Source: Tubulanus polymorphus
Lineage: Eukaryota; Nemertea; Palaeonemertea; Tubulaniformes; Tubulanidae
Assembly: GCF_964204645.1 (NCBI RefSeq)
Contig: NC_134032.1
Span: 16,368,775 to 16,432,774 of the forward strand
Length of the DNA: 64,000 nucleotides
Reading direction: 5' to 3'
The notes under the pieces are model-generated. The model was not told the origin of the DNA. It worked only from the letters and a program-made list of their open reading frames with translations, and made no database searches. A program made the position numbers and the translations under genes. Below are positions 45,142-48,100 of the stretch, one piece after another. The first letter of the stretch is position 1, and each line of letters begins with the position of its first letter.

Positions 45142-48100
45142 ATGTCAAATAAAAGGTAATTAGTAAGAATTTAGTCAGATTCTAATGTCAGTTATGATAC
45201 GGTGGTCGTGTAGCCCAGAACTCTCCCCGATGACGGTGTGGCCGCCTTAAGCCTAGAGTCAGAGACATTTATTGACATTTTACTTAGTCCAACAAACAGT
45301 CAGCAAGCAGAGAGTGGAGACAAAAAATATATTCTGTTGTTTCTGTCTACCCTCTCTACCCACCCAAGCGTGTTTGGCATGTTTCAGAAGGGGTTGAGTC
45401 CAGTTCTTCTTTGATGAAATGATGGGACTGTCAGTGGTGCAGGATCTAACTGCAGTTAATGTCGTCTTATCTCACTCACGTTTATTATATTGGAAATAAT
45501 TTACTGAATAACGTTTTTCTTTGGATGTCATTTTTTCGATGAAAATAAAATTGAAGTAAATTTGCAGCAATATATATATATATATATTAGAACCTGTCAA
45601 AAACCGGCAATTGGACGTTGGTTGGTAATTAAGAATTTCTTCCAACGTGCCTGAATCTCTTCATTGTGTGACACTGTTACAAACAGTACATAAACATTAG
45701 AGACACTTAACTGAAGGCGATCCGAACTAGAACTTCTTTAGGGAGGCCTAAAACAGTTGAAGCTGTGAGAGGGAGGAAGGGGTCAGAGTGCTCCAGACCA
45801 GAGACTAGATAGATCTGATATTATGATTTAATGATGATATCGTTTTTTGCTGCTGCTGCTGCTGTTGTTGGTGATGCAGTGAATTAAAGCGACTAAGCGA
45901 TGAAAGTCTCGCTCGTCAACCAGATGAAGTATTTGATATTATATGTAAAATAGGTCGAGGGTAAGGAAGGAGTCGTCAGATATTTATTTGCATGGTTTTT
46001 ATGTCTATTTTAGCCTCAGTTTTAGCTGTTAACATTTCACAAACACTGATTATTGAAATCCTCAATATTTTACCCAACAGTTTGTAAAATGTTTATTTGT
46101 GTAGCCATGCATGATGCATGATGCTGCTGCTGCTGCAGGCAGTGGTTGCTGCTGCTGCAGCGGTTGCTGTTGCTGCTGCTGCAGTAGTGGCTGCTGCTGC
46201 TGTTGCTGTTGCTGTTGTTGTTTGTATCTGGTGAATATCACTCATTATATATACATGTATTTGTTTATTGTTGCATGTTTGTTTGTATCAGTAATGTTCA
46301 CAGGGTCTGGATCCAGGGCACTATGATATTAGACACACTCCCCGTACTGAAATAGCATCAAGTCTCTCCTCACAAGTCGCCCTGGATCTGGTTTCAAACC
46401 TCAAATAGTCAATCAGGGGCTGAATGGAGTTGATCAAAAGTTGGTTGAAATTGACTGTTTGATGAACAATTGAAATAGCAATGGTTACAATGCTGTTTAT
46501 CGACTTGTTAACTTCAACTAATTTATGAGCTACCCCAGCCCCTGAAATCACAGATCGAGATACTGAGATTCACAGATCGAGATACTGAGATTCACAGATC
46601 GAGATACTGAGATTCACAGGTCGAGATACTGAGATTCACAGGTCGAGATACTGAGATTCACAGATCGAGATACTGAGATTCACAGGTCGAGATACTGAGA
46701 TTCACAGATCGATATACTGAGATTCACAGATCGAGATACTGAGATTCACAGATCGATATATTGTGGCTTTGTGAATATTTTTTATTATTTGGCATGCTTT
46801 GTTTGTTGCTATAGTAATGAAAGTACGTCATTGACACGTTTGAGCGAGGAACACCTGAAGCGACCTCCCGATGAGGTATTTGACGTATTAGGTAAACTTG
46901 GAGAAGGGTAAGAATGATTTCGGGGGATTGCTGTTAGTAGCATGTGTGCTTCCTACACCGCAAAACAATTATTATAGGCTGAAAATTGACACGTTGTTTT
47001 TTCTTGAAATTAAATTTGTGATCAGTTCTAGAACTACTGGAGAATAGTACCGTGAGCTGCGTTGACTTTTAACTTCTGCAGAAATTAAAATCAAGTTGTC
47101 AATTTTTTTAGCTTAAGAATTAAAAAATCATTCGTTCTTATTTGAAATATTGAAATATTGAATTTTCTCTTCGTTAAATCGAATGTTTTTGTTTTCAGTT
47201 CATATGGCAGTGTATTTAAATCGTTACATAAAGAATCAGGACAGGTGCTCGCTATTAAACAGGTTCCCGTCGATACAGATCTACAGGAGATTATCAAAGA
47301 GATATCAATCATGCAACAATGTGATAGTCCGTACATCGTCAAGTATTACGGCAGTTATTTCAAAAATACCGATCTATGGGTAAGAGTTGAGGTAGAGAGA
47401 GAGTTGAGAGAGAGAGGGAGAGGGAGAGAGTTGAGTGAGAGAGAGAGTTGAGGGAGAGAGTGAGAGAGGAAGAGTTGTTAGTTTCGTTACAACTGGTTTC
47501 AATTGTATTTTACTGATTTATTCCTAGATTGTAATGGAATACTGTGGAGCTGGATCTGTGTCGGATATCATGAGACTTCGAAATAAAACGGTAATTAATA
47601 ACCACCTGATAATCCCAGGAGACAATCGGGGGGAGGGGGCAGTTTCTGAGGTCCAAGCCCCTGCCTTCCCATCAGTGGAATTACGCCCCCTTTTTGTTGA
47701 GACCAAGATCCTTAAAACCCGTTGCAAATTAGACACTTACTACCCACTTTATCGCTTGGTTTATTCCAATATATCTAATCTGACTAGTCATCCTTGGTAT
47801 TGCCGTTTTCCCTCGACCGGCCCTCGCTCTGTTTTCCCTCGACCGGCCCTCGCTCTGTTTTCCCTCGACCGGCCCTTGCTCTGTTTTCCCTCGACCGGCC
47901 CTCGCTCTGTTTTCCCTCGACCGGCCCTCGCTCTGTTTTCCCTCGACCGGCCCTTGCTCTGTTTTCCCTCGACCGGCCCTCGCTCTGTTTTCCCTCGACC
48001 GGCCCTCGCTCTGTTTTCCCTCGACCGGCCCTCGCTCTGTTTTCCCTCGACCGGCCCTTGCTCTGTTTTCCCCCGACCAGCCCTTGCTCTGTTTCTGTAT

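Follow-up and report, generated by a model that had tools for sequence, protein, structure and literature searches.

The Hippo kinase gene of the nemertean Tubulanus polymorphus carries two adjacent copies of its second exon, designated 2A and 2B, both of which are intact, in phase, equipped with signals for splicing, and conserved as protein. We consider it likely that an ancient tandem duplication produced the two copies of exon 2 and that they now serve as functional alternatives, which would give the animal two Hippo kinases whose N-terminal edges differ in about 27-31 residues. The presence of two intact copies, each apparently kept by selection, suggests that the gene yields two versions of the kinase.

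A complete Hippo kinase gene with two copies of exon 2

We analysed a stretch of 64,000 nucleotides (the window) of the T. polymorphus genome. Its + strand carries, at 45142-51898, a full Hippo (MST1/2, STK3/4) gene that encodes both a kinase and a SARAH domain (Table 1). The frame runs from an ATG, preceded by an in-frame TAA two codons 5′ of it, to a TAG at 51896-51898. When exon 1 was joined to one copy of exon 2 and to exons 3-10, the spliced frame encoded 533 residues with 2A and 537 residues with 2B, and the Gly-rich loop, AIK, HRD, and DFG motifs of the catalytic domain were found in both translations.

Table 1. Exons of the T. polymorphus Hippo kinase gene, numbered from the first letter of the window
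Feature	Position	Strand	Evidence
Exon 1 coding part, MSNK + AG, start codon, ATGTCAAATAAAAG	45142-45155	+	donor AAG/GTAATT
Exon 2A, (S)...(G): N-terminal tail, beta-1, first half of Gly-rich loop	45880-45960	+	GT/AG sites, MST2 similarity
Exon 2B, (S)...(G): 2A homologue, 4 extra N-terminal residues	46815-46907	+	GT/AG sites, MST2 similarity
Exon 3, SYGSVFK..., second half of Gly-rich loop, catalytic Lys (AIK)	47199-47379	+	
Exon 4	47528-47590	+	
Exon 5	48129-48293	+	
Exon 6, activation segment	48423-48590	+	
Exon 7	49046-49294	+	
Exon 8, acidic linker	49911-50136	+	
Exon 9, linker with polyQ, ends where SARAH starts	50716-51011	+	
Exon 10, SARAH domain and stop TAG	51740-51898	+	Mst1_SARAH PF11629

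The identity of the gene, which the preliminary description had read from its motifs, was borne out by searches of Pfam and of PDB sequences. Pfam revealed Mst1_SARAH (PF11629) at residues 479-526 of the full 2A protein (E 4.8e-24; 84.5 bits against a cut-off of 23.1), and a kinase domain scoring 233.5 bits in the same protein and 236.3 bits in a 311-residue fragment of the 2B protein. With either exon, the ten best of the 60 PDB sequences listed were STK3 or STK4 (507-540 bits), and STK24 came next among these 60 at 311-314 bits. The kinase domain matched that of human MST2 nearly equally well with 2A (539.9 bits) and with 2B (538.3 bits). The same description had placed two exons, each with an AG acceptor, a GT donor, and a shared phase, between MSNK+AG of exon 1 and SYGSVFK of exon 3; its coordinates were exact, and both joins to exon 3 are open.

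The genome, 268 Mb in 77 contigs, was searched for further copies. A DNA search with 45142-47379 gave 112 matches, comprising a single full-length place, 110 matches to a TGC repeat, and one match to intron 1 (73% identity). With the exon 2A peptide, the whole genome returned 2A itself and 2B and nothing else at E <= 10, and no third copy of exon 2 was found in the 268 Mb. A peptide search of the same genome found no second Hippo gene; of at least 103 matches, all 6 with identity of at least 84% fell inside the Hippo gene, and the best one outside it, among the at least 103 matches listed, reached 69% over 32 residues. It is therefore scarcely credible that 2A and 2B stem from an assembly artefact or a collapsed paralogue: the locus has a single full-length place in the genome, the two exons share just 62% of their DNA letters, and local alignment of the 100-bp flanks yields at best 18 and 16 at 2 per match, values that stand without a control. 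Nothing observed spoke in favour of such an error. Outside the animal genome, 60 residues of exon 3 found no confirmed relative in prokaryotic genome contigs (88 pattern matches) or in IMG/VR (8 pattern matches).

Repeats are frequent in and around the gene. The acceptor of 2A sits within a short CTG run. Between 2A and 2B, a TGC-type array occupies 46122-46222 and has 110 further genomic matches, many of which overlap, and a 22-bp minisatellite (9.7 copies, 96% matches) lies at 46548-46760, just 5′ of exon 2B. Exon 6 ends in a 30-base stretch that, together with its donor (CCACCGTATGGAGATATACATCCGATGAGA/GTAAGT), is present in three tandem copies at 48561-48702, with donor words at 48584, 48636, and 48690; splicing at the second or third of these would lengthen the exon by 52 or 106 bases and shift the frame. 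Introns at 50140-50680 (CCACCAGGGGGTGCAGCG type) and 51040-51700 (CCCCTCTCA type) consist largely of tandem repeats.

Elsewhere in the window, five long open frames that look alike by eye lie at 17256-28878, two on the - strand and three on the + strand, and the four of the five that were scanned all matched MFS_1. Long minisatellites at 52125-53475, 56388-56841, and 61540-62716 are open in several frames on both strands and give rise to spurious open reading frames. An exon-like match to the KICSTOR subunit C12orf66 (PF09404, 51.1 bits) at 56433-57128 on the - strand adjoins a minisatellite. Rfam, at its gathering thresholds, gave no match in the whole window.

Splice sites and reading frame of exons 2A and 2B

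Exon 2A is 81 bp and exon 2B is 93 bp long, both multiples of three. They share a common phase of two bases into the codon at either end, being entered after the AG of codon 5 and left after the GG of the second loop glycine. The donors, AGG/GTAAGG for 2A and AGG/GTAAGA for 2B, each share 6 of the 9 letters of CAG/GTAAGT, a count found also in seven of the gene's eight other donors, while that of exon 1 reaches 7. Pyrimidines make up 12 of 21 acceptor positions in 2A and 14 of 21 in 2B, compared with 9 to 17 in the other eight acceptors (exon 1, which has no acceptor, was left out). The splice sites of 2A and 2B thus resemble those of the other exons of the gene. Neither exon has a start codon of its own, and the frame upstream of each meets a stop before any Met; the ATG comes from exon 1. 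The frame stays open with 2A, with 2B, with both, or with neither.

Both exons encode the same piece of MST1/2, as had been read earlier from the motifs R-L-S-(D/E)-E, P-D-E-V-F-D, and K-(I/L)-G-x-G, which follow in this order in each. Each ends at the second glycine of K-x-G-x-G and so covers residues that bind ATP. The resemblance exceeds what chance would give: the best ungapped match to the human MST2 segment within 45156-47198 had a BLOSUM62 score of 89, whereas the introns without the two exons reached 8, and the highest of 60 first-order Markov resamples reached 24.

Both copies appear to be kept as protein

We compared 27 residues of each exon with human MST2, ungapped and scored by BLOSUM62. 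Exon 2A was identical to MST2 at 15 of 27 residues and positive at 24 (score 89), and 2B, which carries four extra residues (NEST) near its start, was identical at 17 and positive at 21 (score 85), so that over all 27 residues neither copy is clearly the closer to human MST2. The two exons differ in where the resemblance lies. In the N-terminal 14 residues, positives numbered 13 in 2A versus 9 in 2B, and in the last 13 residues, which form the P-loop half, identities numbered 7 in 2A versus 11 in 2B. On these counts, 2A is the copy with the more MST-like N-terminal half and 2B the one with the more MST-like P-loop half. The earlier portrayal of 2B as canonical and 2A as diverged accordingly holds for the P-loop half and is reversed in the N-terminal half. 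Changes confined to one copy were split between the N-terminal and C-terminal halves as 1 and 4 in 2A and 3 and 0 in 2B, a distribution that is suggestive and not significant (Fisher P 0.14).

Between themselves, 2A and 2B are identical at 16 of 27 residues (59%). They differ by 31 bases, 16 of them at third positions, so that the third position differs in 16 of 27 codons; this excess is modest, and the sample of 27 codons small. The NG86 method gave a dN of 0.31, with dS not computable (-1). We then simulated neutral decay in 20,000 runs under a simple substitution model, with 2B taken as the ancestor, and counted copies that had no stop, kept both splice sites, and retained at least 16/27 identity. 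Half the third-position distance yielded such copies with P about 1e-4, and the full distance yielded none in 20,000 runs. Since positives to MST2 are high, third positions differ in 16 of 27 codons, and simulated neutral decay almost never leaves a copy of this kind, 2A is, judged by its sequence, not merely a decayed copy, and the protein encoded by each copy has very probably been maintained over a long period.

These results bear on two readings in which a single copy does the work. In one, 2A is dying or unused and the mRNA holds 2B alone. The canonical K-L-G-E-G of 2B, its closer loop half, and the acceptor of 2A, set in the CTG run and slightly poorer in pyrimidines, would fit such a state, which is nevertheless improbable in view of the open frame of 2A, its two splice sites, its positives to MST2 (nearly complete in the N-terminal half), and the outcome of the decay simulation. 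In the other, 2A is the main exon, and 2B is minor or unused. In its N-terminal half, 2A does resemble MST1/2 more closely, and it is without the four extra residues of 2B, but 2B has kept the canonical loop and has splice sites like those of 2A, and we regard this second reading as very improbable.

How one exon might be chosen over the other

The preliminary description had proposed that 2A and 2B are probably mutually exclusive and yield two Hippo isoforms. The two isoforms agree well with the intact, selection-kept exons and the open frames that they complete; exclusivity, in turn, is not forced by the frame, because both lengths are multiples of three and the phases match, so that double inclusion and double skipping stay in frame. 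Steric exclusion is unlikely because 854 bp of intron separate 2A from 2B. Mutually exclusive exons commonly have an exclusion device, such as a short intron, a mixture of U2 and U12 sites, a frame break, or base pairing of the docking/selector type, although none is required. The first three of these are absent here, given the 854-bp intron, the GT-AG sites, and the frame kept with both or neither exon.

Base pairing of the docking/selector type was looked for in the introns, and none held up against real-sequence controls. The region contains 15 inverted-repeat pairs. The best pairing between intron 1 and intron 2 spans 34 nt (45554-45587 with 46251-46284), is partly an AT repeat, and would loop out 2A. 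It exceeded all of 100 Markov resamples; of 80 genuine window segments that lie outside the gene, however, 5 paired with intron 1 and 10 with intron 2 equally well or better. Because real pieces pair as well, we gave this duplex no weight as evidence for an exclusion device. For the two remaining intron pairs, resamples paired equally well in 63 and 97 of 100 cases, and whole-intron duplex energies were as low or lower in 30, 23, and 25 of 30 resamples.

We also considered Muscleblind-type regulation, since YGCY words are dense beside 2A. They number 6 per 100 nt from 45780, a density reached in 1.2% of counting windows, and 13 per 100 nt from 46100, reached in 0.4%. This density was given no weight and the candidate was set aside, because the downstream TGC array belongs to the genome-wide repeat with its 110 other matches. 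For U2AF-dependent duplicated exons, FYN among them, the choice of splice sites is reported to depend on trans-acting factors (PMC5224494). A regulated choice of this type is the likely mechanism in the Hippo gene as well. Since double inclusion and double skipping both remain in frame, we infer that 2A and 2B are used singly through regulated choice of splice sites rather than through an obligatory lock.

The same observations would also allow 2A to be an optional cassette, with 2B always included and 2A sometimes, so that the long form is the 2B kinase with an N-terminal extension of 27 residues. Double inclusion does leave a full open protein, and no convincing device prevents splicing of 2A to 2B. 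Against this stands the loop half of 2A, where V-F-D, K, G, and G have been kept though they would be useful only when joined to exon 3. Under neutral decay these residues survived jointly with P 0.0008, a value for six of the eight shared residues picked after inspection, and the total identity of the loop half (8 of 13) gave P 0.02. Retention of these residues therefore argues, if less strongly than the evidence for selection on the whole copy, that 2A is used in direct junction with exon 3 and does not simply lengthen the N terminus, and we think the cassette arrangement unlikely. Alternative use of 2A and 2B is the reading that we carry forward.

Comparison with known tandem exons

FYN exons 7A and 7B, which cover the ATP site, belong to the established class of tandem duplicated exons (PMC9741552). 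These exons (FynB/FynT) are mutually exclusive and show sharply different tissue patterns (PMC9741552, PMC7352836). FYN is a close parallel to the Hippo gene because its exons also cover the ATP site: in both genes, neighbouring homologous exons encode the ATP-binding site of the kinase domain together with the N-terminal flank. The two also differ: FYN is a tyrosine kinase whose exons, of 159 and 168 bp (PMC7352836), include the SH2-kinase linker, whereas the Hippo kinase is a Ste20-type Ser/Thr kinase with exons of 81 and 93 bp that end at the second loop glycine. According to PMC9741552, duplicated-exon regions tend to avoid ligand-binding residues, and those that overlap such residues mostly keep them, a trend that 2A and 2B fit because both keep K-x-G-x-G. 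Exclusive, tissue-specific use is known for FYN, whereas for 2A and 2B we infer it.

Mutually exclusive exons in the catalytic domain also occur in Mapk14, Mapk9, and Mapk10, where they encode other parts of the kinase domain, outside the Gly-rich loop. Human MST2/STK3 and MST1/STK4 belong to the same family as the nemertean kinase, share its kinase and SARAH domains, and are its top sequence matches. We know of no duplicated exon 2 in vertebrate or fly Hippo/MST genes. The main text of the survey of human tandem duplicated exons names none of hippo, hpo, STK3, or STK4 (PMC9741552). The literature searched, which lacked most subscription journals, yielded no account of a Hippo kinase with mutually exclusive exons; apparent matches to STK3 were, in those examined, parts of the names Stk36 and Stk31. 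The duplicated exon of the Hippo kinase thus appears, from its sequence, to be a new case of a known class in an unexpected, central kinase.

Predicted consequences of the exon swap

Exchange of the exons would alter both the N-terminal edge and the Gly-rich loop. The human MST2 segment contains LSEDSL, whose two serines, three residues apart, fit S15 and S18, and we take this to be their absolute numbering. In 2A the sequence is LSDESL, with both serines kept and a D-E-S-L context at the second, and in 2B it is LSEEHL, with the first serine kept and His in the place of S18. PLK1 prefers [DEN]x[ST]-hydrophobic sites. 2A, MST1, and MST2 all have this motif where S18 lies; the 2B segment lacks it. 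According to PMC10602929, PLK1 phosphorylates human MST2 at S15, S18, and S316 in centrosome disjunction, the S15A substitution abolished the TRIM69A-induced association of MST2 with PLK1, and the leading role in that association falls to S15 (PMC10602929). An account of MST2 in centrosome separation names neither S15 nor S18 (PMC8064503). Since S15 is matched in both exons and leads in PLK1 association, the argument from S18 is weakened.

The loop reads K-I-G-R-G in 2A and K-L-G-E-G in 2B. A G-R-G loop is present in solved MKK6 structures, so 2A need not be inactive, and by this comparison G-R-G is compatible with a working kinase. The 2A kinase, with both serines that match S15 and S18 of MST2 and its G-R-G loop, could answer PLK1-type mitotic input at the S18 site; the 2B kinase, with His at that position, the NEST insertion, and a canonical G-E-G loop, would be without PLK1 input there. 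The difference between the loops may in addition tune the handling of ATP.

These features allow a more far-reaching, and rather doubtful, proposal in which one gene does two jobs. The 2A kinase would be switchable by PLK at the S18-type site and act in mitosis and centrosome separation, and the 2B kinase, blind to this input and with another ATP lid, would act in growth control. In vertebrates each MST protein would do both jobs, which in this animal would have been parted by splicing. The Hippo kinase is usually seen as one enzyme per gene, controlled post-translationally. If 2A and 2B are used as proposed, the kinase would gain a further level of regulation, a splice switch acting on its ATP loop and on a site reported for PLK1, and tandem exons that swap the ATP site of a kinase would have another example besides FYN. 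The gene would then offer a natural experiment that parts the mitotic from the growth-control roles of the Hippo kinase.
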